64,000 nt of DNA, taken from contig WIUZ02000016.1 in assembly GCA_015956445.1 (NCBI GenBank), positions 682,001-746,000 of the forward strand, given 5' to 3'. Position 1 is the stretch's first letter. Each line of letters starts with the position of its first letter. Position numbers and translations under genes: made by a program. Positions 18,421 to 54,246 of the stretch are shown one piece after another. Under the pieces are notes generated by a model that saw nothing but the letters and a program-made list of their open reading frames with translations, searched no databases and was not told the origin of the DNA. This DNA is from Thelephora terrestris. Lineage: Eukaryota; Basidiomycota; Agaricomycetes; Thelephorales; Thelephoraceae.

Positions 18421-18845
18421 GGCTGTGTGTAACAAAGGTGGGTTTGTTGAGAGACCCAGTCATCCAACCCCCTTTGGTTATATACCAAATGCCACCCCCC
18501 TTCCACGACTCAGGAGTTGAGTCATCCTTTCTATTGTTTACTGCGCATGACCCACATGACATCATATGCCCCTATCTTTAGTCATATGCTCCCCTTTTGC
18601 CATTGGCTGTTAGTCAGCCATACCCACATTCCTTCCGAACATTCTCAGGATACGTCATGCTTTGTAACTGCTTTGTAATGCTCTCAAATTGCTATTGGCC
18701 GCCACACTTTCGTTTATCAGCTGATAATTTGTAGCATTAGTCACCACGTAAAGCACAGACCATGCAGTGCTGCGCACGGACCATGTTTGTCTGTGTTTGT
18801 ATCATTAGTATAGTTACATGTTACTGTCACATCACAAATCTAAGT

Positions 18846-18853
18846 AGTATATA
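18846..18853 (+). promoter_or_regulatory. TATA box of element I
   Basis: GTATATATAC, about 430 bp upstream of and directed away from the antisense gene start. It is followed by CT-rich leader-like sequence to the element terminus, as expected for an LTR promoter. Confidence 0.5.
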
Positions 18854-21863: not shown

Positions 21864-22788
21864 GTTTTGGTAAGATGATGGGGAAGTTGCTGGTGTTGCT
21901 GATCAAGGATGGCTCCAAGAAGACGTCCTTCTTATAGCCTAGATCGGTGATCCTTCACGTGACCTACCTCGACAAACCTCATTGGTCCGGGTCACATCAA
22001 CTTCCGCCCCCTGTACCATCATCGTTGGCTTACTATGTCAAGCTGATACCTCGGCCCGTGGGACGGCCTTGGAAGAACTTCGTTCCGGAACGCCTAGAAC
22101 GCGCGCGCACTAAAAATAGGTCTCAAGACCCTGATGACCCCTTTATGACATCACGAACCCCTTTTACAACCCCTCATGACTTTACGATTACAATCAACCC
22201 TGGACCCTGATCACACATGTGGACAGTCACATCACAGTCTCCTAACCAGAGGAAGGAATCACCGCTATTCGGAAGGAGTGCCTTAGGCTCCTTTTGTTTA
22301 GCCAAGCGAATGTGGAAGTAGCCGTTAGCGTGAAACACCGGCGAATCTGTAATCCCTCATGTCCCATGAGTCTAGGCCCAACCTCCTCATGTTCGGACAT
22401 ACGTTGAGGTTGCCACTAGTCCGTGATGCTGTTACCGCCTACAGACAACAAGGGATGTTGAATGTCTCTACTCCCGAATCCAGCTGGCAGAGGCCATGTA
22501 AAGGGAGATTGACACCTGGCCCTTGGGTGAGATCCCCAGGTACGAACTTTCACGATCCCATGCCCCTCTTTCTTTTAGGACTAGTGTTATCTTTACCCCT
22601 ATGTTTCATGCGGACATTTCTTATCTTTTATGCAATCCTTCACACGCTAGTAAGGCCCTTTGTCTTTATTCTCCCACGCGTCACCATTGTTCGCTTCCCT
22701 TACTTAGCGTTCTCACACTCCTTATCTCCCTTTGTTCTATCTTGATAAGGGTATATTAGGGTTACTGACGTCATGGCCACTCCTTTAG

Positions 22789-22793
22789 TATAA
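22789..22793 (+). promoter_or_regulatory. TATA box of element B, with upstream TGACGTCA
   Basis: Identical to the element A promoter block. Directed rightward, away from the antisense gene, about 450 bp from the element end. Confidence 0.55.
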
Positions 22794-23463
22794 GTAGCAA
22801 CTGTGGCTGTATTGTAGTACCTTAGTTTTGTTACCTCAGGAAATCCTCTGCCCTTCTCAGCCCAGTTGCAGTTAAGGCCAAGTCAGAGTTTTCTGTTTGA
22901 ACCCAAGACATCCCCCATCTGCTCTCCCTCCCGCTCTGCGCGTCAACTGCGCCTCGCAACTATAGAACCCCAGCGTTCACATTAGAACACCTCGAGCGTC
23001 CAGTCAATCACCTGGTGGAGTCATCCATCCTGTTGTAGGGATAAACCCTTGTGTGTTAAACCGAACGAAGTACGGTTTAGGTTGGGTTTCCCTTTAGGAT
23101 TTCGACCTGACTTGTAGTGACCTCGGACAACCTACCGGAAGAATAGAGAAGTGATCGTTCTCTCACAAGCTAGTTGGACTAGTGAGTACTCTGCGGAGTC
23201 GGCTCAGTGCACTGGTAGTTGTTGGGGTAGAGTGGCCCTGACAATCAATTGTTTCCGAGTCTATACTAATCACTTTGCTTTCTGTCTAGGTACATCAAAA
23301 CCGATTACATTATCGCTGCATACCTCAAGCATTGTAAAGTCCAGGACGTCAAAATATCATAAAATATTGCCTGCAAGTGGTTGATCAACCTCCCTGCCAG
23401 ATTTTCGACCTACTACGAGGACGTGGACCTAACAGCATTCTCTTTCACATTCCTCATCCCAAA

Positions 23464-27682: not shown

Positions 27683-30156
27683 TGTCAGGGCCACTCTACC
27701 CCAACAACTACCAGTGCACTGAGCCGACTCCGCAGAGTACTCACTAGTCCAACTAGCTTGTGAGAGAACGATCACGTCTCTATTCTTCTGGTAGGTTGTC
27801 CGAGGTCACTACAAGTCAGATCGAAATCCTAAAGAGAAACCCAACCTAAACCGTACTTCGTTCGGTTTAACAAACAAGGGTTTATCCCTACAACAGGATT
27901 GATGACTCCAACAGGTGATCGACTGGACACTCGAGGTATTCTATAAGATGAACGCTGGGGTTCTATAGTTACGAGGCGCAGTTGACGCGCAGAGCGGGAG
28001 GGAGAGCAGATGGGGGATGTCTTGGGTTCAAACAGAAAACTCTGACTTGGCCTTAACTGCAACTGGGCTGAGAAGGGCAGAGGATTTCCTGAGGTAACAA
28101 AACTAAGGTACTACAATACAGCCACAGTTGCTACTTATACTAAAGGAGTGGCCATGACGTCAGTAATCCTAATATACCCTTATCAAGATAGAACAAAGGG
28201 AGATAAGGAGTGTGAGAACACTAAGTAAGGGAAGCGAACAAATATGACGCATGGGAGAATAAAGGACAAAGGGCCTTACTAGCGTGTGAAGGATTGCATA
28301 AAAGATAAGGAACGTCCGCATGAAACATAGGGGTAAAGATAACACTAGTCCTAAAAGAAAAAGGGGCATGGGGTCATGAAAGTTCGTTCCTGGGGATCAC
28401 ACCCAAGGGTCAGGTGAGAATCTTCTTGGATGCTTCCTTTGGAGAGGCCAAAGATAGAGACCATTCATCATCCCTTGTTGTCTGTAGGCGGTAACAGCAT
28501 CATGGACTAGTGGCAACCTCAACGTACGTCCGAACATGAGGAGGTTGGGCCTAGACTCATGGGACATGAGGGATTACATGCTTCACCGGTGTTTCACGCT
28601 AACGGCTACTTCCACATTTGCTGAGCTAACCAGAAGTATCCTAAGGCGATTCTTCCAAGTAGCGGCAATTCCTTCCTGCGGTTAGGAGACTGTGATGTGA
28701 CTGTCCACGTGTGTGATCAGGGTCCAGGGTTGGTCGTTATCGTGATGTCATAAATGAGTCATCAGGGTCGTAATAAAGTCGTCAAGGTCATGAGACCTAT
28801 TTTTAGTGCGCGTGTGTTCTAGGCGTTCCGGAACGAAGTTCTTCCAAGGCTGTCCCGCGGGCTGAGGTGTCAGCTTGATGTAGTAAGCCAACGATGATGG
28901 TACAGGGGCGGAAGTTGATGTGACCCGGACCAATGAGGTGCGTCGAGGTAGGTCACGTGAAGGATCACCGATCTAGGCTATAAGAAGGACGTCTTCTTGG
29001 AGCCATCCTTGATCAGCAACACCAGCAACTTCCCCATTATCTTACCAAAATGTCTCTCCCAAACAACCATACCTACAAAGTCGCCAATGGTATCTCCACC
29101 ATTTCTCGCATTGATTGCCGTGCCGCCAACCGCAAAACCTACGCCAATGAGGCAGGGGTTCCCTATACCACGGATGAACAGGTATGGGGGAGAGCTAGGG
29201 CTTCTTGTGTTTGCACTAACTCCTTCCTCTAGGTAGAGGTCGTACATTCATCAGCTTAGACGTTGAGCTAACGACTTTTAGATCTTGGAGGTCATCAAGA
29301 ATGTGGACGCCGAACGTCTCAGGGAGACGATCCCACATCTAATGGGGTTGACCTGGGACAATGAGCTCTGGGTCTGGTCCATGATCACCGAGAAGGTGAT
29401 CTTCCAAATGAGGGGTAGGTTTGGGGAATTAGAGCATCCCATCAAAAAGGAGCTCTGGTACACCCTGCAGAGGGGGATCTACGATCAGGACCTGTTGGAA
29501 CACGGGGCAACCGTTCCTCGGGCTGTCCGCCATGCCACCGCTTCCACCATGCTGTTATGGTTGCTCGTTCGAGAGGGGGAAAGCCGAGTAGGTTTTCCAT
29601 TTGGATATTCGAGTATGACTCTCGACTAACCAAACTGCCTCGGTTGAACGTTTAGAGCGGGAGGTGAAAGAGGCGAAGGCAGACGTCCTTCGTCTGTCCG
29701 CGGAGGGTCTTCTGATGAAGGAGACTATGGCCGACTTCCAAAAGGGGACAAATGAGGCATTGGCAGCAATGATGCTCAACCATCAAGAGTTAGTCGCCGG
29801 ACTAAAAGTCAGAGACACCAACATCCGGGAAGCTTTGGATGCGAGGGACGATCGCCTGGATAGGCACTCAAAGAAGATCGAGGGTGAAAGCGCTAAGGTA
29901 GCTTTCCTCATCTCGAAGATGAAATGAGGGAGGCTGACACTTTCTAGATCGAGGAACTCGAGGATCTAGTGTCCGTGTTGACAGTGCGGATTGAGTCCTT
30001 GCAGGACAAGACCTGCAACTGCAAGGAGGGTCCCGTGTTGGTTGGTCAGGGGACTGCTGACGTTCCATTCGAGCTGGAGTATGCCGACGAGGTGGTACTC
30101 CCATCGCCTAACCTGTTGTCCTACGCCACGCCTCCAATCGAGAACGCGGTTCCCGT

Positions 30157-35803: not shown

Positions 35804-38800
35804 TGTCAGGAACATGGTATTTTTAAACTTTTTATAACACGCTCTTTCTTCGAACTTTTCTTACCACTTCTTATGTTTTGAATGCTTCACACTCCTTATC
35901 CTTCACACCAATCATTCGAAACACACCAACGCGCATACATTCACGGCAATACGGAACAACTGGCTATACAATGCTTATACAACGTCCTCAAAAGTCGACT
36001 CTATCTACGGCAGGCCTCATGGTCATCAAGCGTCCATCCCGGAGATCGTAGTGCTGGCCCCTCCTCGCAAGGACCTCCCCGAACATGGCGTCACCATCTT
36101 CGGCACTCAGCTGAACGACGAGTTCAAGCCGATAGGAAGAGATGCCTTCGAGCGGACCGATCAGCCTCCCAGATGTCACCGAACTCTGGAACACCTGGTC
36201 CCACATCTCCATCACCGGGTGACTGCTCTGCAGCACTATCGACATAGTCGAAGAGCGACCCTCCGTCTCCCTCGTCACACCCCTGGGTGGGATCCTCTCT
36301 TGCGAGTCTAAGCTCGTGGCGAAGCTGGATCTCCGACTCGACCTGTCGGTAGGGACGGTGGACTCGATAACGGAACTCTCGTTCCCCACCTCGACCAGAC
36401 TGGTCACCATCCGACTCAACTGGACGCGGGTATGGGTTAGCCGAAGGAGCCATGCGATGAGCAAGGCGGCGTCGAGAGCGTTTACAACGCTGCCCCTTGA
36501 TCACCGGACGTACCTCAATGGCCCTCGGAACGTCTTCGGCCCGATCTACCTCCATGACCTCGTCCTCGATCTTGACCAACCTACTGATCGGCTGCAATGG
36601 ACAGCGCCCACAGTTCTCCTTGTCGGACTCGGCCAACGTGGAAGCCGGAGCCGGAGTCGGAACGGGAACCGCGTTCTCGATCGGAGGCGTCGCATAGGAC
36701 GATGGGTTAGGCGAAGGGAGTACCACCTCGTCGGCGTACTCCAGCTCGAACGGAACGTCGGCAGTACCCTGACCAACCAACTTCGGACCCTCCTTGCAGT
36801 TGCAGGTCTTATCCTGCAAGGACGCAATCTGCGCCGTCAACACAGCCACCACGTCCTCGAGCTGTTCCGTCTAGAAGAAGTGTCAGCTTTTCTCATTTCG
36901 TCTTTCGAGATGAGAAAAGCTACCTTTTCATCCCTCCTGGCCAGCGCCCCCTTGATGTTGTTGTCCCTGACCTTCAGCCCGGCGATCAACTCTTGATGGT
37001 TGGCGACCATTGCCTCCAACGCCTCGTTCGTCCCCTGCTGGAAGGCGGCCAGAGTCTCCTTCATCTGGAGACCCTCCGCTGACAGACGTAGGACGTCTGC
37101 CTTCGCCTCTTTCACCTCACGCTCCAATCGTTCAACCTAGGTAGTTTGGTTAGTCGAGAGTCATACTCGAATATCCAAACGGAGAACCTACTTTGCTCTC
37201 CCCCTCTCGAACGAGCGACCACAATAACGAGGTGGCGGCGGTGGCCTGACGAACGGCCCGAGGAACAGTCGCCCCGTGCTCCAACAGATCCTGATCGTAG
37301 ATCCCTCTCTGCAGGGTGTACCAGAGCTCCTTCTTGATTGGATGCTCCAACTCCCCGAACCTACCCCGCATCTGGAAAATCACCTTCTCGGCAATCATGG
37401 ACCGGACCCAGAGCTCATCGTCCCAGGTTAACCCCATCAAATGTGGGATCGTCTCCCTGAGACATTCGGCGTCCACCTGCTGGACGATCTCCAAGATCTA
37501 AGAAGCCGTTAGCTGGACAGCAGCGCCCAAAAGAACGTAACCTCTACCTAGAGGAAGGCGTTAGTGCTAAACACAAAAAGCTCTAGACCTCCCCCATACC
37601 TGGTCATCCGTGGTATAGGGAGTCCCAGCTGCACAGGCGTAGGACTTGCGGGCAGCGGCACGACGGTCGATACGGGAGATGGTGGATATGCCGTTGGCAA
37701 CTTTGTAGGTGTAGTTGTTGGGGAAAGACATGTTTTGGTAAGATGATGGGGAAGTTGCTGGTGTTGCTGATCAAGGATGGCTCCAAGAAGATGTCCTTCT
37801 TATAGCCTAGATCGGTGATCCTTCACGTGACCTACCTCGACGAACCTCATTGGTCCGGGTCACATCAACTTCCGCCCCTGTACCATCATCGTTGGCTTAC
37901 TACATCAAGCTGACACCTCGGCCCGCGGGACGGCCTTGGAAGAACTTCGTTCCGGAACGCCTAGAACGCGCGCGCACTAAAAATAGGTCTCAAGACCCTG
38001 ATGACCCCTTTATGACATCACGAACCCCTTTTACGACCCCTCATGACCTTACGATTACGATCAACCCTGGACCCTGATCACACACGTGGACAGTCACATC
38101 ACAGTCTCCTAACCGGAGGAAGGAATCGCCGTTATTCGGAAGGAGTGCCTTAGACTCCTTTTGGTTAGCCAAGCGAATGTGGAAGTAGCCGTTAGCGTGA
38201 AACACCGGCGAATCTGTAATCCCTCATGTCCCATGAGTCTAGGCCCAACCTCCTCATGTTCGGACGTACGTTGAGGTTGCCACTAGTCCGTGATGCTGTT
38301 ACCGCCTACAGACAACAAGGGATGTTTGCATGGCTCTACTCCCGAATCCGCTGGTACAACTATGTAAAGGGAGATTGCCACCTGACCCTTGGGTGTGGTC
38401 CCCAGGTACGAACTTTCATGACCCCATGCCCCTTTTTCTTTTGGACTAGTGTTATCTTTACCCCTATGTTTCATGCGGACATTCCTTATCTTTTATGCAA
38501 TCCTTCACACGCTAGTAAGGCCCTTTGTCCTTTATCTTCCCATGCGTCATATTTGTTCGCTTCCCTTACTTAGTGTTCTCACACTCCTTATCTCCCTTTG
38601 TTCGGACTTGATAAGGGTATATTAGGGTATTGATGTCATGGCCACTCCTTTAGTATAAGTAGCAACTGTGGCTGTATCGTAGTACCTTAGTTTTGTTACC
38701 TCAGGAAATCCTCTGCCCTTCTCAGCCCAGTTGCAGTTAAGGACAAGTCAGAGTTTCTTGTTTGATCCAAGACATCCCCCATCTGCTCTCCCTCCCGCTC

Positions 38801-39107
38801 TGCGCGTCAACTGCGCCTCGTAACTATAGAACCCCAGCGTTCATATTAGAACACATCGAGCGTCCCGTCAATCACCTGGTGGAGTCATCAATCCTGTTGT
38901 AGAGATAAACCCTTGCGTGTTAAACCGAACGAAGTACGGTTTAGGTTGGGTTTCTCTTTAGGATTTCGACCTGACTTGTAGTGACCTCGGACAACCTACC
39001 GGAAGAATAGAGAAGTGATAGTTCTCTCACAAGCTAGTTGGACTAGTGAGTACTCTGCGGAGTCGGCTCAGTGCACTGGTAGTTGTTGGGGTAGAGTGGC
39101 CCTGACA
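35804..39107 (+). mobile_element. Element D: complete 3.3-kb LTR-like element with intact-looking antisense gene
   Basis: 3304 bp, TGTCAGGAACATGG to GGCCCTGACA, flanked by GTTTT on both sides (35799-35803 and 39108-39112). It is inserted in element E. The right part has the TATAA promoter (38654-38658) but the upstream palindrome has decayed to TGATGTCA. The left part encodes the antisense gene with all four exons open, making D the best reference copy for the family in this window. Confidence 0.92.
35988..37731 (-). CDS. Antisense coiled-coil gene of element D (reference copy)
   Basis: Four exons. Exon 1 37731-37600 (44 residues) and intron 37599-37498; exon 2 37497-37192 and intron 37191-37137; exon 3 37136-about 36922 and a short intron ending TTCTAG near 36873; exon 4 from about 36872. 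Exon 2 is an all-helical domain of about 100 residues (RETIPHLMGLTWDDELWVRS, LEHPIKKELWYTLQ); exon 3 is a coiled coil; exon 4 has KTCNCKEG, a CGRC pair, acidic and basic stretches. The frame from exon 4 ends at 36124 (HLFLSA), while an overlapping frame open from 36464 ends at 35988 with AEDGDAMFGEVLARRG..RPAVDRVDF. The gene reads against its element's TATA promoter; the first base of the ATG is about 925 bp from that TATA. I do not recognise the family. Confidence 0.65.
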
Positions 39108-39235
39108 GTTTTGGACCACATAGACTTTGGGTGGATATAGGGAAGTCGTTCCCCCTTTGCCCCATTGACTCTTGTTGGTTGGAGTTGTGACTCACCAACA
39201 GCACTGGTATCTCAAGGCGAAGAGTGGACCTGACA

Positions 39236-39963: not shown

Positions 39964-42900
39964 TTACAGTTGATTAACCTTATTCAGGAACCAGCTGGCT
40001 AGCCTGTGCAATCTGTACATGTCCCCATCCTTCTCAGCAAGCCAAGAATACACATGATTAACATCACCCTCCCATTTCTTTGTATCCCAGCCCAGCTCCT
40101 TCTTCAGCTCAAGTTGGAAATCATCCTTCCCTTGCTTGTAGACCACCCATGCAATACCTATACACATATCTGCTGTAGTGCAAAGACTTGCAGTCTTGTC
40201 TCTGTTGCTGTGGACATTGCTTGGGAACCCACAGGTGAAACACCAGTATGGATACACATCTGTCTTGTATGACCACTGGATAAATTCATTCAGTTTAGGG
40301 TAAGGGAGGGAAATTGGTGCAGTCTCATACCTTAGCTTCACTTTTTTTTGGTGAATTGTAATCATAGAAATCCTGGAACCCCTGGAGCTCCTGACCACGG
40401 TATCGGGCACAGTCATTGAGCCTTTCATGTCTTGAAGGTGGCTTCAGAGCCCCACCATTTTTCTGAGTGTGCAAGAGCCAGCAAATGCCACAAGTCTGGC
40501 CCACCTTGACTACCCTCTGATATAGTTTGGCAGTGTTTTCTTTGAGGAGTTTTTCCCCAGCTACTGCATGGATGGAGTGTCGAATTACTGGCAGATTAGG
40601 AGCCCGAGGTTGAAATGGTTGTGTGGGTATCTGTGTGGGATTATTTGTGGGCTGAGATGGATAAGGTGTGAGACCTGTGTTCCTCCCAGAAAAGCTGAAG
40701 TTGCTCTGATTGAGAGCCAAGGCGTATGCGGACTTGATGACCTTGCAATCAGGGTTGCACCGGCCACACCGTTGTGAACCATCAAGTTCATGACAAGTTT
40801 TTTCAACTCCATCCACAGTTGATGAGATAACTCCCCGAAGGCATCCTGTGTCATCCAGCCAGTCCTGTAGCTCCACCTGGCATTGGCTGTCATCTTTGTC
40901 ATTGGGTTTGGGGTAAAAGTTTCTTTGCTTGGTGAGAACAATTACTAGGGCAGGTTTTCCATCTCGCCCAGCCCTGCCTGCACCCTGAACAAGGTCCAAC
41001 AAGCCCCATGGGGGTGAGGCAAAGATCACAAACCTGACATGGTCATAGTGAACTCCTTGGATGAGAGCAGAGGTTCCAATCAACAATCCTCCAGTCTGAC
41101 CATTCCTCCAATCCTCAAAGTACCTTTCCCTTTCATCATCACTCTCTGTCATCCTGCCATGGATGAAGGGAACCTCAAGTGCGGCTGATAGTAATTGGCC
41201 TTCTTCGACCTTTGAAACAAAGACCAGGCCTCGATTTAAGTCAGTGAGGCCTGCTGCAAGTCCCTGAGCAGTCCTCACTACAGCATCCATAAAATCCACA
41301 TCATTACACCGAAGAGATTTTAGAGCATAGATGTGTTCCAGCCGGTTGGTTGGCATCCGAACAATCTTGGGATTTTGTGGGAGGGCCACCGCCTTTAGAA
41401 AAGTCTCAAGAAGTCTTGGAGGGAGGGTTGCTGTGAGAAAGGTAAGGGGAATCTTGAGTTTCATGACTGTGGGAACATGTTCCATGCACTTCCGATAGGT
41501 ACTGGAGGTCAAAATGCAGTGTGCTTCATCAAAGACCATGGCGCAGATACTTTCACAGTTTTGTCCCAGCCAGCTGTTCAGACCTGTCAGCCTATGCCAC
41601 ATGCCAGTTGGTGTATTGTTCAACACTCACTTTAAGAATGGTTTACTGACTGCAGTTTCAACTGCCACTATGGCCAGCCTAGTTTCTGAGGCATTGTACA
41701 CTGTGCCAGATGTCCACTTCTCAGCCTTGATACCAATTTTCCTTGCATTTTCCATGATCTGCATCACAAGGGTTTTGAATGGAGCCACAACCAAGGTCAA
41801 CCTGCCCTCAACAATTGGGGGAATCTCAAATGCCATTGACTTCCCAGCACCAGTAGGCAAGACAGCAACTGTGTGCTGCCCACTGAGCACCAATTCAACC
41901 AGGTATTGCTGTTGGGGTGACTTGAACACTGCTTTGTCATTTTGAAGGGCAATTCTCAGACCACGTAGAGCCTTATCAGGAATGGACTGACTAGGGTTAG
42001 AAGCCACATCTGGGAATTGGTGAACAGTATTGGGACCCACCTCTGATGAGCCAACTGTTGAGTGCACTGGCATGCTTGAGCTTTCTGTGGCCTGGTTTGG
42101 AGGCTGATGGTAAATGGGATGAGAGGATGGGGCCTCTAAGAGTTGTTGGTAGGTGGGTCCCAGGGTTAAGGGTTCTGGGGGAAAATGATGAACAGAAGCA
42201 GACATGAGGGGCCTTGGGGTATGGCAGTGGTCTGTTTCTGGAGTACTTGGTCTTGTGCTCAAGTCCACCTCAAGGTCTGTGATGGGTTCAGAGGGTTCTT
42301 GCTGTAAGTTGGGTCTTGTGAGTGCATCCAATTCCTGCTCCTCATTGTTGGCAAGTTGAGGGGGCTGGCTCTTGAGATTGTTGACCTCTGGAGTTGCAGC
42401 TTGATCTGACAGCTGGAAAAAATTGGCTATAAAGGAATCTGAGTCAGCATGGGACCTCTGTGGCAACTTATCTCTCTCACTTTCTGGGGTTTCATCCCTC
42501 ATGCCTGACCAATGGAGTGTTTGGTTGTTTCTTTGCCTCTTTTTCCCGTCATGTCCTAGGTCAGTCAGGGAGGCTACACGTTTCTTCTGGGCTGCTGGTT
42601 CCAAGGGTTGCAATGTTGGGAGAGGGTGATGGGTAAATGGTGCAGCCAGAGGTTGTGGGATATGGGAAGGGTGAAGGAATGTTGGGTGTGGAGCAGGTGC
42701 TGCAGTGGGTGGTGTGGTAGCTCCAGCTGTCTGGCCTGGATGGTGACTGGATTGCTGGTGGGTTGAGTTACTGGCAATGTCAACAAGAACACTTGTGCAA
42801 GTCTCTGCAAAATTCCGTCGCAGCTCTTCACGTATGAAGGGCTGCATCTGTTGAATGACTGTGTGGTATGTTGCACTCTGGATTTCATTAAGCAATGATT

Positions 42901-45900
42901 TGATGAGTCCATTGCCAGAATCACCATGTGAAGTGGAGGCCAGTCCTCGGGCAAGTCGTCGCTTTGTCCTGAGTGGAACCAGGGGAATGTTCTCTGCTCC
43001 CAGCCCAATTGCATCATGATACTGCTCGCACCACTCGCGGACGTCTAAGAGATGATGGGAAGTCATCCCCTCCAGGAGGCCATGCTCACGGGCATAGACT
43101 GTATCTGCAGTTCTTGATGAATGGGCAGAGATGAGATCACCGATGTTGTCTCCACGAGGAACTCGGAATTCTTCGACATACTCGCGTTGGAAAGCGATGA
43201 TGATGTGTCGGAGGGGGTTGAGACCAAAGGAGACACCGAGGTGCTGTCCAGTCACTTCTTGTAAGACATCTGAGAACTGTGCTGAAGTCATCCTCTGTCC
43301 GTGCTTGACGTAGAGGTAAAGACTATAGTTCTCGACTTCTGTGGGTCCATAAAGGACTTCTGCTATAGCCTGTTCCAGCGGCCGTACCACCAGGAGGTAA
43401 TAGCTGATGAGTTCTGTGAGAACCTGGGGGTGAAAACAGACATTGAATGCATCAAGGCCACTGGCATGGGTAGTCTTGGTGTGTCTCCTGACTGTCAGCA
43501 GGCGTCCAAAGTTGAGATAGAATGTTCTAGGTTTCAAACCATTTGATATTTGGTCTTCCATCTGCTCTGTTCCACGAGAGGGTGGGCCTGCGCCAATGTG
43601 GACCAATGTAGCGATGAGGTCAACAATGGATGCAACCTTGCACATGAAGTCATGACAGGCACATTTGTTCCACCTGAGTTCCCCAGCCTTCACCTCTGCA
43701 AGCCTGAATGTCTCTCCAGAAGCCATGTGTTGAAACAGGGCGTGTTCTCGGGGTACGGTGTGAGCATGGCGGATCCAAGAGTCGCCACGGGTGGTGGAAG
43801 TGAGATCATCCACAAAGTCTTCAGGAATGTGGTATTTGATTGGTTGCCCCCCAGAAAAGGAGTACAGCCTGGACCTCAAAGCCATGGCCATTGACTTGAC
43901 TCCACTGGTCAACTTGTGGATCTTCAGGCTGGTGGATCGAAATTGAACTGTTGACATATCTGGGCTCCAGGTGATTGATGGGGCTACGATCTGGTTGTAG
44001 GCCAAGGTTGACACAAATCGCTGCAACTGCCGCACATCATCAAAGACAGACACTGTTTTGTCTTGAAGGTGACCAGGGCAATGTGATTGGAGCCAGCTGT
44101 CATGAATTTTGAGAAGAATCCACAATTGAGTTAGTCAAACTGGCATACCTTAACATTGTACAGGTCTCTTGCCTGGAGACAAGGCAAGCCTGGTACATGG
44201 CTGTGGCTCGAAGCAAGAATTGCCAATTTGCTAGGAGAGAAGTCATGGAGGAAGGAGGTTTGAAAGTATCATCAGGGTTGTAGCTGTATGCGGCAATGAA
44301 GCACTGCACAGGACATTGGAACTGTTTGTCCTCAGCGTCGGGGGATCGTCTGGTGACACAAGCGAAGAAGAGAGACTGGAGTCCTTCCACAAGATCGTCT
44401 GTAACATCCTGGGGCCTCTGTGCTCTGTTGATTCTCTGGCAGAGCTCCTGTGTCAAATTTTGCTGTTCGGTGGTGAGGGGAAGCTGGCAGCTTGCCCCAG
44501 GGTGCTGGTGGGTTCGAATGCATCCGGCAACAAATCGCGTGAGGGTTCGCGTGTAGTTATTCTCGGCACCGTCAGACTCTACCCACTGCCAATATGCGTC
44601 ATCCCTGATAGAAGTTTAGAAAGGTTGTTTCAATGAAAAGACAAACAGGAACACTCACGCTGTTGCAAGCAGCCGGCGCATGGATGGTGAGGAAGATGCC
44701 CAGATTTTTTTGATTTTGCTGGCCCATGCCACAGAGATCGGATGTATTGCATGTAACAGTTGGTCCCCAGTGGCGCCATATGAGGGAAAGGCTATCAGAT
44801 CGATGACCTCTGCTGGGTTGTTCCGGAAAGGGCCAACAAAGGCATCCCAGTGGGTAACCTTTAGGAGGCTAGACATCTCCCTTGATTCAAGATCGTCAGC
44901 CTGTTCAGGATGCAAAATGGGTTGCTTGGAGTGGTGAATGAGTGCCTTGTATGCCTCGGAAGCAGATCCCGGTGAAAGCCCTGCAAAAACCCTGAAGTAC
45001 CTCCTGTGAACCCCTTGGAAGATGGTCTGGTAGTCACAGGTGTAGGTCCTCCTTTCCTCTACTGAAGGCTTCCAGTTGGCGTCCTTGTGTGCTCTGCTGA
45101 GGTGAGTCGCAAAGGAATTCAAGGTTCCCACCACTTCATGGCATGGGGATCCACCGGCCTCTATTGGACAGTAGAACCCACGCTCGATCTTGATTCCCCT
45201 GACAGGAGCCTGCCCTGCCTGTCGTCCACGTACCACATCAGGGTCTCCAAGACCCAGGGAAGAGATGAGTTCCGGAAGCTGGTGTATGTCATTCTTGAAT
45301 TTCTTTCGGAGGAGATCAAACACCTCATTGTGCTTGGTTTCCAGGTGACCTCTCCACTCCATTGGGGGAAGCCCAACTTGGCACAGGGTGCAGATGAGGA
45401 CTCCTATGTCTGAATTGAAAGCCAAACCGAACAGATCTAGTGGGTGAGGTTGAATCAGTTCTGCCTCAGGATGGCTTGTGCTTTCTTGGGAGTAAGGATG
45501 TGTATCCCCTAGGTCGATTACTACTGGACCAAGCCCTTGAGCACAGATGCATGCCACTGTAAATGGAGCTGTAATGCTTACTATTGCTGCCAAAATCATT
45601 GTCGCAGATGTCCTCAACATGTTCAATGGATTCCCTCTCCGGGTCAACTGCCATATCTGAATAGAGCTCTGGAGGACTGGGTCCCTGGCAAGCACTTGTG
45701 TGATCTGATAGCTTGCTGTAGTCAGAGTGACACAAAATTACCCTTGGGAGGGTTACTCACTTGCTGGATGTGGTTGGCTGGCAATGTGCAGCATTGTGCT
45801 GGCTGCAACAGGTTCTTCAGCAACCTGTGACACCTGATTGGGCGTGGTTGGCTCCATGTTGATTTCTGGGATCTCGAAAGACAAAGATGGTTCTATGAGA

Positions 45901-46440
45901 ACCTGCTGGATTTGACGTGATGGAGTTGGGGTTGGGGTTGAGCCTGTTGAAAGGGTGTCTGTCTCTTCTTTGGTACCAAACTCCGTAGCTCCAGGCTTCT
46001 CTGGATAAGCAAATATAAGTTTCCACTATGACAGAAACCATGGTCAATTTCAGAAACCCAGATTGCTGTTCACCCACTCACCTTGCCATCAAACGCCTTC
46101 ATTAGTGAGTACTTTGTCAGGAGTTTACCCCCTGACCGGTAGCCACTCGATCCACCAGGCTTTTGAGCACGGACGTATTCAAATATTTCAAGGCCTGCAT
46201 TTGGCTCAGCAATCAAATACCATTTGTTGAAGCGCACACTCTTACCCTTCTCTGACTCAAAACCAACTGCCTCCTTGGCCTCCAGGTGCTGTCCCAGTGT
46301 GCCATGCACCTTTGAGCGACACAGTGGGCAGAAGTCGGGGGTGTCAAGAAGGTTGATGTACCTCATCATTGTCATGAGGATCGGTGAAGGGTCAGTGTTT
46401 GAAAAAGTGTGGCGAGGAGGGGCGTGACTTCCAATCAAGC
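39964..46440 (-). CDS. Composite OrsD-like zinc finger / tyrosine-recombinase-like / RecQ helicase protein
   Basis: Exons include about 46440-46085, about 46027-45756, 45720-44659 (probably split by a small intron near 45590), 44604-44149, 44096-41631, 41591-40331 and 40275-39964. Introns: 44658-44605, 44148-44097, 41630-41592 (39 nt) and 40330-40276. N-terminus: CPLCRSKVHGTLGQH finger, then an OrsD/DUF3505-type module (CTLCQVGLPPMEWRGHLETKH and a second C/H pair). Middle (44.0-43.0 kb): tyrosine-recombinase-like residues in order, PPSRGTEQ (Arg), RHTKTTH (Lys), NPLRH, AHSSRTADTVYARE (His..Tyr). Then a long Pro/Ser linker and a RecQ-type helicase: LPTGAGKSMAFE (41828-41866), DEAHC (41515-41530), AGRAGRDGK, and zinc clusters CHELDGSQRCGRCNPDC and PYWCFTCGFP. 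The residues expected for ATPase and strand-exchange chemistry are visible and the long exons are open. Start codon not fixed. A mobile or subtelomeric role is inference. Confidence 0.85.
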
Positions 46441-46639
46441 GCTGAAACACCTTATCTCCTTGCAAAGAATGAATTATCTTTTGTTGTAACAAGAAACTGA
46501 CTTGTGAAATAATGACAAAGAATACCAGAGAAGAAGACGTCGCTTCAGATGGGAATTTGCAAAAAAAACAAAGATCCTCGCGTATTTCGTTTTTTTTCAA
46601 ATACGTGACAGAGAAGCCGTAGCTCCTCGGCTCAAAACG

Positions 46640-47090
46640 CAGTCATGGTTACCGAACGAACGACAAACATCGACGAAACATTAAATACTCGTATGGTCCT
46701 GTCCCTCCACACAGAGACAATGAAGCGATCGCCCGGCACAAGGCGCGCAGACGACACGGTGTGGTCACGTCCCGCCATCGTCTTGGCCTCCCTCCGGTCG
46801 TTTTGAGTGTCCCATACTTTGATGAGTAAATCTGAGGAACATGTGACTCTATCACGTCGTAAGTCATAGGCAAGAAAAATCTAAGACATTGCCCCTGCTA
46901 TCAAAGTCGACGTGGTTCACAGAGCGTTCCCTCAAACTGTTTCCCAGTCCCAGATCTTCACGATGGAATCGTCGCTCGCGGAAGCAATGGTGTTGTAGGA
47001 GGGGTAGAAAGCAACGCGTAAAACTTCGATCCAGTCAGAGTCGGGAAAGACGAATGAGATAAGAATCTCTCACAGGATGGTCGGGAGTAA
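46640..47090 (-). pseudogene. LIS1/PAC1 WD-repeat fragment
   Basis: On the minus strand, WD-repeat pieces typical of the nuclear-distribution protein LIS1/PAC1 (a dynein regulator) are visible: [18 protein letters not shown] near 46940-46995, then LLIKVWDTQND, a DHTVSSAR..PGDRFIVSV segment and RDRTIRVFNVSS (46870-46680). The first two lie in different frames with sequence missing between. Normal proteins have an N-terminal LisH/coil and seven WD repeats; only about three are here. The downstream part is cut off where the RecQ-type gene region begins, and the N-terminus is not found upstream. Confidence 0.7.
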
Positions 47091-47400
47091 TCGAAACTGG
47101 AGGGTGTTCCCCAGACTTAACCACGCCGAGAGGTCCTGATACTGGGCGGCGCCCATTGACTTATCCTTTTTGACCTTGTCGAAGAAGGCCTCCTCGCTCT
47201 TCGTCAGGGGCTTCTCGCTATACAGTTCGTGCCTCGAGTCGGTAGAGTTGAGCGCTCGGAGTTAAGAAACCAGATCGGAAGCGACACCGCTGTCCGCATC
47301 CGTGAACTGTAAAAGGAAACTTTTGAGTAAGAGATAATTAAGTAATGTGGAAAAACCCACGGACGCGGAGAGTTCTGCTTCTCGTCAACGACGGAAGAGA
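47091..47400 (-). other. Unrecognised coding-like fragment
   Basis: A minus-strand frame (about 47270-47110) reads LYSEKPLTKSEEAFFDKVKK and continues through KSMGAAQYQDLSAWL. The composition is protein-like and soluble, but it has a stop on its N-terminal side and loses the frame within about 60 codons. I cannot name it; it may be a remnant exon of a separate host gene lying between the PAC1 fragment and the glutaminase. Confidence 0.3.
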
Positions 47401-47839
47401 TCTACTCAAAAGACGAGGAGGAGCGCCAAGGATGGCATCTGAACGTGATGTGCGTAAACGCGACCCTCTATCTGGAGGAGCACATCTCTGACGCGAAACT
47501 TTTGGAAAAGTGAGTGGAACATTGACTTTTTGGAACGTGCTTGCTTGTGATGGCGGATTGACACGACTGTGGCTGGTTATTTATCGCGGAGAGGATCTGA
47601 CGCCACATCATCGAATGAAAAGCTACTATGGGTATTCATTCGAATCATTCTGCACGGCCCGAACGCCACATGCGAAACCGGGGTGGGGTGGTGATGTGGA
47701 CACGAACGTCCAGTGGTGGAGCGTCGTGAAGACAAAGTTGGGTGACACAAGGCTCATGATCGGTGGCAAAGGAATGCAGGCTTGACGACACCAGCCGCGC
47801 CAGCTTGATACGTCAATCCGGGGTCCTGAAACGTGTTGA

Positions 47840-48690
47840 AAAAGGCTGGTAGGACTCTGCGCTAGAGTGTAACGACGCACCTGCTCCGTGGAGTAAACGA
47901 CGCTTCCATATCTCAACCTGCCGTTTACCTCGCCAAATTGGGTCTGGTTCTGGGGCAAAAACTGATGGGTGACAACGTCTCCCACCGTGGTACTCCATTG
48001 GACAAGTTGGTCAGGTTGGGCGAGCCATTCTCCGTCGATATCTGTGAAGAGCTCGACTTGACGTGGGTTCCCGTCGTTGGAGGCAACCTTGACGCCAAGG
48101 TAAGAGATCGACTAGATCCGTCGGCTGGGCTCTCGTCAGAACATAACCTGGCACGGATTCGGGTGGTTGATAGGGCACAAACCTCGATCGGGCTCAGGCT
48201 CAGAAAGGTGGCGGTCAAGTCTAACCTCCCGCAAGTCATAGCAATAACTGTCTTCGTCGAAGTGAACTTGAGGTGATGAACGTTTCGTCCCAGACAAGAC
48301 CTGAGAGTGGAGAGGTACATACAATTGTTTTTTTTTGGACCGCCGGGGTGTAATTCTGACGGTCTCCCATCCAATCGAATAGCTGGCCGTCCACTCTGAA
48401 AAACCCTGTCCATGTAAGTTTCTGACCGGATGCGCCCACTAGTCAGCGTCCAGGGTCTACCGAAAGAGTTCAAGTGAACGACTCACCGAGCCATCACGAT
48501 AGGACTGCCATCCAGAGTTCAACGAGCCATTTGTCACTCCCTGATCCATCCATGACTGAGGGTATGGTCCCCTGACAGCAAGTGGGTTCACAGGAGGGAT
48601 GAGGGGCATGACCGTCCAGTTTTGTGCGAAGGCAAACGAAGCCGCGAAGAGGAGTTGAAGGAACGACATCCGGTAACTGACACCGTCCAT
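47840..48690 (-). pseudogene. gtaA: Glutaminase A-like secreted protein, N-terminal fragment with frameshifts
   Basis: Starts MDGVSYRMSFLQLLF with a signal peptide ending ..FAFAQ. Then PVNPLAVRGPYPQSWM, and after an intron (GTGAGTC..GGTCAG) WTGFFRVDGQLFDWMG, the N-terminal signature of fungal GtaA-type glutaminases (DUF5127/DUF4965/DUF1793). Further pieces follow in shifted frames: DLTATFLS, then VASNDGNPRQVELFTDIDGEW and QFLPQNQTQFGEVNGRLRYG. A conserved block between PTDLV and SYLGV is missing a few bases, breaking the frame. Usual proteins are about 650-700 residues; only the first third is recognisable, so this is a fragment. The family converts glutamine to glutamate outside the cell. 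Confidence 0.7.
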
Positions 48691-48699
48691 GGTCGCTCA

Positions 48700-49860
48700 G
48701 GGAGAGGTTCAGTATTCGGGTCAAAACACGGGGGAATCCGGTGATCCGCGCGCGCCAGAGCCCGAGCCTTGCCCAGCCGACTCTCCTCAAAATTTGTACG
48801 ACGACTGATATCGTCATACCCGACGCTTCAATCGATGACAAATGAGATTCGATTTTTACTGGAAACGCTGCTGTAGTTAAACGCAAAGTAGACGAAGGTA
48901 CTGAATAGAACGGAGGGTAGCTGGTTCGAGGAAAGCTTCTTAACCAGGGCTGCGTGATTGAACAAGCCAACGCGCCCAGCCTGCGGCACCCTGATTCCGG
49001 TCGCGGGTCATACTGCTCGCCGACATGATTACGATTTCTCGTGCGCATATTCCCCGCGGTGACGAGCGACAACTTGGACTTTAACACTTTGATCGAGCCA
49101 CAAGCCACACCGGAAAATTCCGATGGGCCACATCGTCGTCGAGAAAGTCCATGTTCCGCGTTCGAGGGGTTCAAATTGATTCCTGCCAGCACAGCGAGCC
49201 TGGGGGTTGATCAAACACTCCTTGCGCAGGCGTTGTTTGCGGGTAATACCGAAAGAACCCAAGCGCCGACGGATGTGGTACTCAACGACGCAGCGAGGTT
49301 GGGTTCCAGTAGGGGTGTCTGTGGCCTGCCTAAGTACATGTGGGCTGAGGTCAACCAGGTGATGGGCATCAATGCTATGACAGTGGATGAACGTCATCTT
49401 GAAAAAGGCGGCTAAAATCGCATGTAAATCGAGGACGTTGGTGGATCCGCGCAATCTGACGGGGAACTGACAACTGGAATAGTCGCGGCCGTAACGTGCC
49501 GTCGATTCCTTCCTTAGGTCCGTCACTCGAGCAATTCTCCTGGTAGGAGGTCGATGTGGCGTCTGTGAATATCGAAGGGAAGTAGGTCCCAGTGGGACGG
49601 GTCCAGGTGTTGACGGTTGGTGTTCGTCTTGCCCTGCGGCGGACGTCCTTCAGCGAAATTGACAGACGAGTCAGCAGGGCTTCTTACATGAAATAACTGG
49701 CTAGTGTCCTAAGCAAGTTTGAGGGACAAGCAGCAAGCGCGTAAGGAAACGCACAGAGCAAGTCCCTAGGTGTTATTGTTGGTGATCTGATCTTTGTTGT
49801 CCTCTTCCGCGTATCTTCATCGTTCGTTCTCGTTCGGATAGGTTCGCTCCTCATCTGGAT
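48700..49860. other. Intergenic region with weak reading frames
   Basis: Overlapping frames of 120-165 codons occur on both strands around 49029-49526, but neither shows a recognisable domain, intron pattern or codon preference. I assign no gene. Bases 49530-49860 are non-coding by eye. Confidence 0.35.
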
Positions 49861-49898
49861 TATCCATTATAATCTATCACGCTGCTTTGCCTTCTTAC

Positions 49899-51553
49899 CA
49901 ACAATATCCACCCCATCAAACCTCTGAGTAGAGTTAAGCCGAGTTGTAACTGTGGAGGGATCAATGCCACCGGGACATGATCCAATAACCACTGAAGGGC
50001 CGACGTGATCATGGCTAGAAACGAAGGAAGTCATTCCCCGGGATGTGGCATGGCCAAGGAAGAAGTACCTGCGCGCTTGGCGGCCTCCAGTTGCTTGTTA
50101 TTCAACACCTCGAGAACAGGTGGAGGGAAATAGCTGGAAGGAAGGATCAGTTGTTCGCAAAATCGGATGCGCTCACATCCTGTAACCCCGCCACATCGTT
50201 TGTAGGGAGATATTGATTGGAGAGGGAACCCACGAGCTTCTCATTCTTCTTCAAGTTCTGTTCCGCCTTAGCTTTGGCCTCCGCCTTCTTCTTCTCCTCT
50301 TTGGTCTTCTGCTCTGCGCGCCTCTCCTCCTCCGTCTTGGACCACGGCCATCGGAAGATGCTCCTTGACTCTGTCCCAGGAGCGTCGCTGGGTCTTCCTT
50401 CTCCATCACCGGGAGCCTCAGCGGAATCTTCATCAGCCGTCTGCAAGGAGCCTGCACCCCTGTCCCCAACACTGGAGTCCTGGTGCATCTCGCTCAACCC
50501 CTGACCATCATCCGCTTCACTCTCTTCGTCGACATCATCGACGGTGTAGATCTGGCGCAGGGGACTCCGGTAACTCTCGGCTACCGCCCGACCCGCTTCG
50601 TTGTAGGGCACGTATTCGGTCTCGGCGATCTCGACGAGCGAATCCCGCTGCGCAATCAAAGGAGAACAAAGCATCAAGCTCGATCCGTCGTCCGCTACCT
50701 CCATTCCACGGCTATCCTGCTCCTCGTTACTATCCGGGGGAAGTTCACGGTTCCTCGACATCGGGGATTGGAGCCTCTCTAAGACTGAGAAAACAGAAGG
50801 TTGGCTGAGACCAGGGGACTTCGTGAGTCTGGCTGAATGTAGGAAGGAAAGGACTCTCGAGTCGGCCATAGGACTGAGTAGGTTAGACGGGCCCTGCACT
50901 GGAGGTTGCGGGAGACTTCTTCTATCATGGGGTGTCGTTGGGGATTCGAGAGCCATTGGTTGATACATTGCAGTATGGGTGGAAGCGATGATGGAATAAA
51001 GATGTGGGTGTTGGGTATTCCCCCTCGCTGAGGGGGTCGAACTGGAAGAGCCTTCGGGTGGTGTTGTCAGAGTTGCTGGCATCGACGAAACAGCATCGAG
51101 TTCCTCTGCAGCAGTCGAAGGGGATCTGGACAAAGTTGGGGACCGACTTGCGTGCTCGGTAGTTACGTGTGGCTCTGGTGCCGACCATCTCGAAGGCGAG
51201 ACTTCATCAAATCCAGAGGTCCTAGTCCTCGCGTGCCTCCAGAATCGTTGCAAAGGTGTAGGAGACGCGACGCCTTCCGTGTCATCCTGGTCTTTGGTTT
51301 GCGGCTGTTCGTCGTCAACGGGCAAATCTGATCGCGGTGGTTCCGGTTCTGGCTCGGGAGCAGAAGGTATCGTGGAGGGTTTTGTGTCTGGTGTACTGAA
51401 GGCCCGAAGGGGGTGTCGCAACCCAACAAAGCGGGTGTTGAGGTTGATGGGGGTTGGGGATCGGATGGCTGATCGTTCTCCTTCGAGAACATCGCTGTTG
51501 TCCTCGGTATAACAAAAGTTCGATGAGGTAGAGGGTAGCGTTTTACGAGGCAC
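49899..51553 (-). CDS. Conserved basidiomycete Ser/Pro-rich protein with C-terminal hydrophobic domain
   Basis: The first exon is a single long open frame from 51553, low-complexity and rich in Ser, Pro, Glu, ending in a Lys/Glu-rich helix (EERRAEQKTKEEKKKAEAKA). After a short intron the conserved part begins: YFPPPVLEVLNNKQLEAAKRA, then after a second intron (GTACTT..TTCTAG) MITSALQWLLDHVPVALIPP ending at 49899. I recall this YxPPP..LEAAKRAAMIT block from hypothetical proteins common in mushroom-forming fungi, where a hydrophobic tail follows. No function is known to me. The C-terminal exon was not found, so the 3' end is open. The two visible introns and the 468-codon open frame suggest it is intact so far as seen. 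Confidence 0.6.
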
Positions 51554-51575
51554 ACACGACCGTTTATTACTCTTC

Positions 51576-52050
51576 TTATTTCGGCTTGCAATGAGAGGTG
51601 GTTGGGATGGTTTCCGGCCAATCCTTCGCTTCTTCGTATCCTCCTTTCATAAGACTTCCGGGCGTAGGACGACACAAAGAGGCTCTCCTGTGACCGCTGA
51701 GGCTATCGAAGACCCGAACCCGCTTAGCTTCCCCGTTGAAGTCCCGCGTCGAAAGGCTCTCGAACGCAAGGGTCCCTCCTGAATGGAAAACTCTATTTCC
51801 AGGCTCCGGAACGAGGCTCGCTTTCCCAGTGAGACGGAACTGGTCCATCGAATCTTCGATCCACCAGTTGATCTGTACCGTATCATTCGCTGGGGTACGA
51901 ATATCTGTGGTTGCGAGAATGGTCGGGAAGTGCCCGTTTCCGTCGGGCGAGATCAATGCTCTGACGATGCATGAGCGGACTTGGGGAACAGCCTCAGCTA
52001 TCGTAGCTAGTTGCATGACTAGAGACAGGGACGTTTTTGAGTCGCAAGTT
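51576..52050 (-). CDS. Pyridoxamine 5'-phosphate oxidase-like FMN-binding protein (Alr4036 type), C-terminus short
   Basis: One frame reads MQLATIAEAVPQVRSCIVRA, then TTDIRTP, WWIEDSMDQFRLTGKA and DSLSGHRRASLCRPTPGS. These match the order of the FMN-binding split-barrel family related to pyridoxamine-phosphate oxidases: Arg for phosphate, WWIE..QFRI/L and the SGH..RASW block. Family members continue for 60-80 residues with a second conserved block; here the frame stops at 51576, only about 20 bp from the next gene's start. The protein is therefore probably truncated. The true start is uncertain because homology extends to about 52050, upstream of the first ATG. Confidence 0.65.
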
Positions 52051-52531
52051 TAGGTTGAAATTTTGTGTAATGTTGTGAAGTACCGTTTGCATTTTTGTGT
52101 TCTCCAAAGAGCTTTGAGAGGGCGGTAAACCAGCGTGGAGGAGGCGGAGACATGATTGGGAGGAATATATGCTTTTTCTTCATGAAGTTCAGACTTTACT
52201 AGGTCCACATTAGCGTTTGGGATCGAGAATACCGTGGCGCGCGGAACTCACGATCACTATGGCCAGACAGAGCGGTTTTCCCGCCCCTTCGTACCGGAAC
52301 GAGTCAGCTAGAGTAGGAAGTGCGTGGAGGACCAAGGTGTCGGATGATTGTGGCGAACAGTGCTTCAATACAACCGCCTGCAGGACCTCGCGCCGCCAGT
52401 GGACCGTCGACCGGTATGAAGTAGGATTTGAGTGCTTCTGGCAAGAGACATCGTAGTGGAGGGACTTGAGTTGGAACGTAGAAGACGAGCGGAAGGAGTG
52501 GGGGTCCGCATGCTCGAGGGTGGGGGGACAA

Positions 52532-53905
52532 TCACGATTTACTAAAGTAGGGATGAACGAGTGCTCGTTTAGCTAAGGGAGAAATCATTAGGGGTGCGAT
52601 GAATGTGACAGGGGCGAAATTTGTACCTGAAATGCGCTTAGAGGTATCATACACGAGCAATTGCTTGACCAAATCGACGCCCTGAGCTTCCAAAGATGGG
52701 AATTGTGAGGCGAGATCGGCCCCCGGCCACTGAGGAAAGGTTGGTTTGTAGTCTGGCAGTTGGCTCACGCCTGGCCATCTCTCTTCGTTCGGTGTCCCCA
52801 TAATCCTGGATGAGTGGAATTGAGGTGAACGATGTGAGTGGGCTACGATGTGAGATACCGACCTGAAAATCCTGAAGATCTGATCGATTTCTGAATCTCC
52901 CGGAAACAGTGGGTTACCCCTGTTGACCATCTCTGCGAAGATGCATCCAACGGACCACATATCTATTGCCGTTCCATAGTGTCGAGAACCAAGCAGTACT
53001 TCAGGTGCCCGATACCAGAGGTCACGACCTATGGCATTTCGGTAGGTTGGCTGAGTCGTGAGGCCTAGCGCGTCGACGTACCTCGTGGGTGTACGTTCAC
53101 ATGGGAATGCCGAATGCCCGCGCAAGTCCAAAATCGGCCAACTTTAGGTTGTCAGTTTTATCGATCAGTAGGTTCTGAGGTTTGAGGTCTCTGTGTGGGA
53201 TTCGGTGGGAATGACAATATAAAAGGCCAGCGGTAAGTTGCTTTGTGAATTTCTGCGGGAAAGTGGGCGTGAGTTATGAACAGTGGCACGTGACCATGAA
53301 TGAATGGGGCATTGTCCTCGTGTGGAACACGCGCGGACGCGATGGTGAACAAAGGGATATATTGAGAACGCGCAACTATTGCCCGTGAATGAAGAGGAAG
53401 GTTCAACTTGCTGACCTTTGTGATCGCGAGCGATATGGGTTTTCCGGAGTGGTTACCATGCTCCATGTAGCGCTTTAAGTCGACGTCGAGGAATTCAAAT
53501 ACCAGATACAGTTTGTTGTCAGCATGGACGATGTCTAGTAGTCTGTGGCGATCCAAAAGTCAAGTCGCACGCGCGGCAGGGGTGGCAGGGAGATCGCACC
53601 TAACGACGTTCTCATCCTTGAGCTCCTTGAGCAAGCTGATTTCTCGGATTGCGGTGCTCGAAACACCCTCATCTTCTGCTTCCAGCCTAATCTTCTTGAG
53701 GGCAACGATTTCGTTTGAGGTTACATCCCGAGCCTTGTACACGACGCCGTAAGTTCCTGGGAAAGTGATGGGGTCATCAGACGTTGAGTGGCCAGGGTTG
53801 CGAACTCAAGACACCTTCGCCTGAGGTAGGATATGGGTCAATGAGAATAAAGAGAAGTTTGACTGAACACTGACCGACTTTCTCGATCTTTGCGTATCTA
53901 CATCC
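52532..53905 (-). pseudogene. cdc2: Cyclin-dependent kinase 1 (Cdc2) with disrupted start, stop and frameshift
   Basis: The order of features is that of CDK1: YAKIEKVG near 53890, glycine loop completed by a 6-nt micro-exon, [14 protein letters not shown], the cyclin-binding helix as SSTAIRE (usually PSTAIRE), [55 protein letters not shown] and a C-terminal HPYFSKS. Introns lie between all these blocks. Three lesions: the expected ATG-GAT-AGA start now reads ATG-TAG; a CGA Arg codon in the activation segment is TGA (53099-53097); and one C is missing in the VVTLWYR codons near 53020. Cdc2 is essential for mitosis, so an active copy must exist elsewhere if these changes are real. Confidence 0.85.
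53815..53820 (-). other. 6-nt micro-exon in the CDK1 glycine loop
   Basis: Sequence GCGAAG on the minus strand, between a 54-nt intron (53874-53821, ending CCTCAG) and a 58-nt intron (53814-53757, GTGTCT..CCCAG). Including it gives VGEGTYGVV with the intact GxGxxG loop. Skipping it still keeps frame but deletes Glu-Gly. The splice pattern is inferred from conservation. Confidence 0.65.
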
Positions 53906-54246
53906 GGGGGAGATGAGAAGTTCGTTTCATAGAGAACGAGTGAGGTCCAACGCACCGGTCCATATAAATTCTGAGGTCTTGAAGGCTTTGGTCGGTTGTG
54001 GGCGGGTGTGTCTGGTGGTTGGGAAGAGAGAGAGGACAGATGGCCGCTGGTGGCGTTTTAAAGTCGAAAGGTCAATTTGCTTTTGGGACAAAATGCGTTG
54101 TCTGCCGGTAGGGAGTGGAGATCCGACCCGGATAACAGCAACAAACACAGACTTAAATTCGCCACGACATAACCCCTCCGGTACATTCTTTCGTCGCCTC
54201 TTCCGAATCCCCACCCGGCTCGAATCTCGAGTCTACTACGTCTGCT

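Follow-up and report, generated by a model that had tools for sequence, protein, structure and literature searches.

Subtelomeric RecQ helicases, referred to here as telomere-linked helicases (TLHs), are known in Ustilago, Magnaporthe, Schizosaccharomyces pombe, Agaricus and others (PMC10532341, PMC7473861, PMC5576322, PMC7840980). In the parts of these reports consulted, only the helicase core domain was found in the Agaricus proteins (PMC7473861), OrsD is mentioned for Ustilago UTASb (PMC10532341), and a helicase and DUF3505 (OrsD) occur together in repeats at all 24 subtelomeres of Colletotrichum higginsianum (PMC5576322). The function of the S. pombe Tlh protein is described there as 'not clarified yet', and the principal role of the tlh genes has been proposed to be the making of RNA (PMC7840980). 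Among the open-licence papers listed by our searches, none reported a recombinase in a TLH in its title or abstract opening. Here we describe a gene of Thelephora terrestris in which a tyrosine recombinase (YR) domain appears to be fused to a RecQ-type helicase, and the repeated, mostly contig-terminal family to which it belongs. The gene lies in a 64-kb stretch (the window; C8:682001-746000, contig WIUZ02000016.1), and all family comparisons were made within one genome of 40.6 Mb in 60 contigs, which are cited by short labels (C1 to C60), with family loci named by contig and kb.

As the preliminary description of this DNA had it, one large gene occupies about this place on the minus strand: a model of seven exons (window 46375..39964), with introns of 39-56 nt set by eye at GT..AG, encodes 2036 amino acids without a stop. 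The model is least secure where exon 2 joins exon 3, a second reading frame being also open there. The product is arranged as OrsD, a middle region of about 365 residues, a linker, a RecQ-type helicase core and zinc clusters. The gene and its recombinase-like features are as follows (window coordinates; residue numbers are those of the first row of the alignment of five subfamilies described below).

46375-46082, 46025-45761, 45715-44659, 44604-44149, 44096-41631, 41591-40331 and 40275-39964, minus strand: whole gene, seven exons, from the gene model.
43001..44095, minus strand: middle region with a tyrosine-recombinase-like catalytic domain, the catalytic half at about 43660-43001.
43574..43576, minus strand: candidate catalytic Arg I, R175 (R-G-T-E), invariant in 5/5; on XerD R148 in the permissive alignment.
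43475..43477, minus strand: candidate catalytic Lys, K208, invariant in 5/5; on XerD K172 in the permissive alignment.
43208..43210, minus strand: candidate catalytic Arg II, R297 (NPLRH), invariant in 5/5; on XerD R247 in the default and permissive alignments.
43121..43123, minus strand: candidate catalytic His, H326 (AHSS), invariant in 5/5; on XerD H270 in the permissive alignment.
43094..43096, minus strand: candidate nucleophile Tyr, Y335, 9 residues after the His, invariant in 5/5; on XerD Y279 in the permissive alignment.

The middle region of the window gene was aligned with four paralogue representatives, each 22-28% identical to it, and the spacing of the candidate residues was compared with that in 61 bacterial and phage YRs. 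Across the five subfamilies 23 columns were invariant, including R175, E178 (of an R-x-x-E box), K208, R297, H326 and Y335, so that R, K, R, H and Y stand in the order typical of tyrosine recombinases. Of the residues picked out in the preliminary description (Arg, Lys, Leu-Arg-His, His and Tyr), these five held throughout, whereas the His of Leu-Arg-His was kept in only 3/5 subfamilies. Spacings were 3 (R to E), 30-32 (E to K), 88-90 (K to R), 29-31 (R to H) and 9 (H to Y); in the references they were 22-39 (R to K), 62-127 (K to R), 19-24 (R to H) and, in all, 9 (H to Y), which places the R-to-K, K-to-R and H-to-Y distances within the reference ranges. With widened ranges, picked after the strict ranges had failed, permuting the labels over the 23 invariant columns reproduced the pattern 79 times in 300,000 trials; when positions were randomised too, it was reproduced 10 times in 300,000.

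The catalytic segment is under purifying selection. Between the B and C6 paralogues, pN was 0.172 and pS 0.776 over its 227 codons (pN/pS 0.22, with synonymous sites saturated), and its amino-acid identity (72%) was the highest of five segments compared, the others being OrsD (61%), the N-part of the middle region (63%) and the two helicase halves (64% and 61%). All five residues were retained in 11 of the 13 family copies inspected by motif. The decayed copies on C1 and C60 each lacked at least one recognisable motif, and in C1 a Cys replaces Arg II.

A profile-profile comparison (hhalign) of the middle region with the 61 references, with no motif supplied, gave a local alignment of 70 columns by default, ending at R297 and its neighbour on XerD R247. 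When the alignment was made permissive (mact 0.01) for the catalytic part, all five residues fell on XerD R148, K172, R247, H270 and Y279.

Several results weigh against a recombinase. The profile scores were weak, with a default P of 0.041 for the whole region and 0.025 for the catalytic part, and the default score was reached by 3/100 and 1/100 column shuffles, respectively. P rose to 0.14 (whole) and 0.095 (catalytic part) with the correlation term off, was 0.67 (whole, register lost) and 0.049 (catalytic part) in global mode, and was 0.18 and 0.13 for the reversed alignment. Pfam gave no match at E 10 in any of the three middle-region sequences, out of five, that were searched (region 44095-43001 in the window), a profile search of the PDB with the middle region and its paralogues gave no match, and AlphaFold2 run on the single window sequence of the region returned a mean predicted confidence (pLDDT) of 33, too low for a usable model. 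The observed pattern did not pass a label permutation with the reference ranges of the 61 YRs, because R to H is 29-31 here versus 19-24 in the references. The position of the [H/K]xxR His, which is His in 60/61 references, is occupied by N, S, S, S and K in the five subfamilies.

The invariant catalytic residues, the profile register and the purifying selection nevertheless support a tyrosine recombinase domain fused to a RecQ helicase, though the profile scores are weak; the cut-and-join enzyme fused to a helicase of the preliminary description is upheld to this extent. From the sequence we infer a YR fold; the YR domain is probably genuine, and catalytic use of the candidate domain is likely.

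Compared with XerC/D, lambda Int and Cre, the region shares the R..K..R..H..Y order, the R-x-x-E box and the His-to-Tyr distance of 9, and differs in the absent [H/K]xxR His, the longer R-to-H distance, the fusion to OrsD and RecQ parts, and the absence of a Pfam match. Cryptons and Starship captains are eukaryotic kin of the tyrosine recombinases; neither DUF3435 (captain) nor any other Pfam recombinase domain was found at E 10 in the same three sequences. The spacing also resembles that of the protelomerase TelN of phage N15, a hairpin telomere resolvase, at 25, 83, 33 and 9 versus 33-35, 88-90, 29-31 and 9 here, a likeness of spacing only, which we regard as a lead rather than as evidence of kinship. 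It was counted from what we take to be the TelN residues, R275, K300, R383, H416 and Y425 (a set transferred from the related TelK, with the letters checked); Y379 stands close to the position at which the second His of YRs would lie. TelN is not known to contain a helicase. Relatives outside the genome were found neither in viral nor in prokaryote contig collections with the window exon-5 frame or the B paralogue as query, nor in viral contigs with the helicase exon.

The remaining parts of the protein, all on the minus strand, are the following.

46260..46335, minus strand: N-terminal CxxC...H zinc-like motif (CPLC...LGQHLE), read in the sequence.
45084..45422, minus strand: OrsD domain, PF12013, formerly DUF3505 (Pfam, E 1.8e-13).
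41950..43000, minus strand: low-complexity linker rich in Pro, Ser and Gln, from the sequence.
40958..41917, minus strand: RecQ-type superfamily 2 (SF2) helicase core, DEAD then Helicase_C with a 39-nt intron between them, from Pfam, PDB and the gene model.
40150..40810, minus strand: C-terminal cysteine/histidine clusters (CGRCNPDC; CGIC...C; WCFTCG), from the sequence.

The OrsD-type N-terminus, the RecQ-type core and the C-terminal zinc clusters of the preliminary description were all recovered. The OrsD match scored 51.4 bits, above the curated cut-off of 26.6 for PF12013, and a Cys/His cluster is readable in front of it, although no Pfam family lay above cut-off on this zinc-like motif (46260..46335). 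The helicase halves, in separate open frames, matched DEAD (E 2.5e-11) and Helicase_C (E 1.1e-12), the motifs PTGAGKS, DEAH and GAGRAGRDG are readable, and the closest solved chains were the RecQ helicases RECQ5 and BLM (E about 2e-15). Canonical RecQ helicases carry RQC and HRDC after the core; in the window protein neither was found, Pfam at E 1 giving only DEAD, ResIII and Helicase_C in both helicase open reading frames.

By the preliminary description, a single-copy gene would have told against its reading. Searched at the protein level with the exon-5 frame, the genome instead gave 28 matches, including the window's own, at 17 loci, and a DNA search added pieces on C3. The B copies lie at C4, C8:636 kb, C10, C11 and C12, and the other four match C12 at 99.5-99.9% over the stretches compared. 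C14 and C19 form a pair of 99.88% identity and C22 and C8:937 kb one of 99.89%, C6 is a further copy, C8:886 kb holds part of the window gene together with upstream flank at 98%, and decayed or short pieces occur at C60, C3, C1, C15 and C4:1078 kb. Near-identical pairs span 98.96-99.94% over the stretches compared. The order OrsD, middle region, helicase is kept in the B and C6 copies, and each of the 12 genomic OrsD matches listed falls at or close to a family copy. At C22:104682-118181 and C8:937606-951111 the OrsD match stands about 13 kb from the middle-region match, which may reflect distinct genes or genes that have been interrupted. On C11 it was noticed that a 2.4-kb insertion inside the gene (C11:771360-773779) is related to window 16745-19115, and that the two halves of the split gene have 6 bp in common when placed on C12, which may be a target duplication.

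Like the TLHs (S. pombe tlh1-4, Magnaporthe TLH1, Ustilago UTASa and those of Agaricus bisporus var. burnettii), the family has a RecQ-type core and, as far as the published accounts consulted describe them, it resembles them in being multi-copy and near chromosome ends, with near-identical and truncated copies. As in the C. higginsianum repeats, helicase and OrsD occur together, whereas those repeats are filed as transposable-element families and the part of their description consulted names no recombinase domain (PMC5576322). In its architecture and location the family is TLH-like; it differs from TLHs, as described in the portions of the reports consulted, by the YR-like domain recognised here, which is a new part relative to the TLH family.

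Nine of the 11 residue-complete copies lie no more than 41 kb from a contig end. Eleven contig ends were read, nine of which adjoin residue-complete copies. At two of these nine the terminal sequence is a TTAGG array in telomere orientation, of 195 bp on C4 (C4:1382306-1382500), about 10 kb beyond the B copy, and of 927 bp on C11 (C11:794869-795803), about 18 kb beyond the B copy. The subterminal sequence before the two arrays is the same, with full-length matches only at these two ends, and repeats 73% related to it occur near the C14 and C19 copies, at a distance of about 5 kb. The candidate telomere repeat at C4 and C11 is the five-base TTAGG and not TTAGGG. TTAGGG was rejected as the telomere repeat: its 45 matches were all interior on the contigs checked, and TTAGG arrays stand at two contig ends. 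TTAGG would be unusual as a telomere repeat in a fungus, if real. No run of at least 3 TTAGG units was found in the 64-kb window. Nor do we take internal TTAGGG pairs for telomere-capped molecules that were inserted, since the sequence beside them resembles the longer inverted terminal regions of a transposon. Transposon-like elements with degenerate CCTAA/CCCTAA telomere-like repeats in their inverted end regions lie in contig interiors, several with about 1.6 kb between the paired runs (for example C1:3383656-3385342, C2:468281-469918 and C13:503639-505226).

A tie between the family and chromosome ends is weakened by the following. Two residue-complete copies are away from ends, namely C8:636 kb and the window copy, the latter about 230 kb from the contig end. 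A 45-base TTAGG run had 701 matches (437 forward, 264 reverse), many of them interior among the roughly 100 listed, and some interior runs lie in transposon ends. The C10 and C11 copies are broken by inserted DNA, in C10 within the gene between OrsD and the middle region, and the C4 copy is cut short. Contig ends can, moreover, be enriched in recent repeats for assembly reasons; therefore, the array-ended contigs C4 and C11 are the stronger evidence. Between the mobile element and the subtelomeric factor offered by the preliminary description, the latter is favoured because nine of the 11 residue-complete copies are near contig ends and two of these ends carry TTAGG arrays, whereas a mobile element was not borne out by the copy boundaries.

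Mapping of these boundaries traced blocks of up to about 15 kb common to different contigs at 98-100% identity. The 10 kb upstream of the C12 gene are common to C8 and C10 at 98-100%, to C11 for 4.3 kb and to C14 in part, and the C4 contig stops within the gene's 5' part. Downstream, C8, C4, C10 and C11 have a further common stretch that is absent beside the C12 gene, where repetitive DNA is inserted. A single precise 3' end for the B copies was accordingly rejected: the shared 3' breakpoint tested was explained by a transposon inserted in one copy, the other four sharing more flank, and the ends are otherwise ragged. The copies follow a pattern of subtelomeric block exchange and not that of an element with fixed ends.

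On balance we lean, from the sequence evidence, towards the gene being a member of the fungal telomere-linked RecQ helicase family, built of OrsD, YR-like, helicase and zinc-cluster parts, that exchanges subtelomeric DNA. By this account, the OrsD and zinc parts and the YR domain would dock on a site or structure in the DNA of subtelomeric repeats, the YR tyrosine would cut and rejoin strands via a covalent phosphotyrosine link, and the helicase would open or migrate the DNA so that an end could invade or be exchanged. As an outcome, telomere-proximal blocks carrying the gene itself would spread and be homogenised between chromosome ends. Both the DNA target and the causal link from the protein to the spread of blocks are what we infer here.

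It is improbable, in our judgement, that the YR instead serves as transposase in a helicase-bearing element akin to Cryptons or Starship captains, with a preference for subtelomeres, the copies being insertions. The family is multi-copy with near-identical, recent copies on different contigs, the YR residues are kept and the decayed copies look like dead transposon copies, all of which would suit such an element. However, the homology blocks extend past the gene on both sides with end points that differ by copy, the five B copies lack the precise ends of Cryptons and Starship captains, the one sharp 3' end, that of C12, is due to transposon-like DNA inserted there, no terminal repeat or target duplication assignable to the gene was seen, and the window copy and its C8:886 kb partner have about 3 kb of upstream flank in common.

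Block sharing can also arise by ordinary homologous recombination without the protein, which would make the gene a passenger of blocks spread by ectopic recombination or break-induced replication, its protein or RNA acting in chromatin or in telomere crisis and the YR being a relic or a DNA-binding fold. The long shared blocks with ragged ends are as this would have them, and, in the part of the report consulted, S. pombe tlh was proposed to be mainly RNA-making, with the Tlh protein function 'not clarified yet' (PMC7840980). We consider a passenger rather unlikely, since most copies inspected keep the five residues, and since the catalytic segment, under purifying selection, is better conserved than the other four compared.

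A topoisomerase-helicase fusion that relaxes or decatenates chromosome-end DNA with no strand exchange is very unlikely: the second YR His is missing, as in type IB topoisomerases (residue set R-K-R-H-Y), and R to H is longer than in the 61 references, but the R-x-x-E, LRH-type (3/5) and GHS-x8-Y-type boxes are YR-like and align to XerD, and the S-K-x-x-Y signature carried by type IB enzymes is absent around the Tyr.

As to the surroundings of the window copy, the preliminary description placed the gene exactly at a border between transposons and host genes and saw a host WD-repeat gene cut at its edge; the latter was not confirmed.

46530..49461, strand not specified: upstream block with a WD-repeat fragment and a glutaminase-like piece (PF17168), duplicated elsewhere on contig C8.

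The 5' part of the window gene and about 3 kb of upstream flank are common to C8:886 kb. Window 46530-54181 is a 7.7-kb block with a 99% inverted copy at C8:838261-845952, holding DUF5127 glutaminase-like and WD-repeat fragments, and is a recent intrachromosomal duplication. Four places on C8 carry the short WD fragment; the search used one of two overlapping frames, not the one scoring as a WD repeat, and the count is therefore of fragment copies, not of true WD genes. The cut host gene could not be retained: the WD fragment is repeated, and the flanks are common to duplicated blocks on C8 and therefore mark no clean insertion, so that the window copy as a clean insertion beside a host WD gene was rejected. 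A repeat at window 38487-39109 recurs at window 453-1075, 22622-23243 and 27683-28307, and also next to two family copies, C4 and C8:636 kb. Within the family the window copy is divergent, and it lies inside its contig in a transposon-rich, segmentally duplicated stretch.

A wider and more tentative proposal, which we hold to be possible rather than probable, extends this to fungal TLHs in general: the whole class would combine a tyrosine recombinase with a helicase. Such proteins would cut, copy and rejoin DNA of the subtelomeres and thereby secure their own persistence at chromosome ends, and they might act in the manner of telomere resolvases or captain transposases. If this class-wide fusion were true, the helicase-only view of TLHs would have overlooked a catalytic centre. 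If the cut-and-join domain is true, the TLH genes would gain a concrete and mutable active site, with one Tyr, their role in chromosome-end recombination would become directly testable, and the gene family would have a way to keep and spread itself at chromosome ends.

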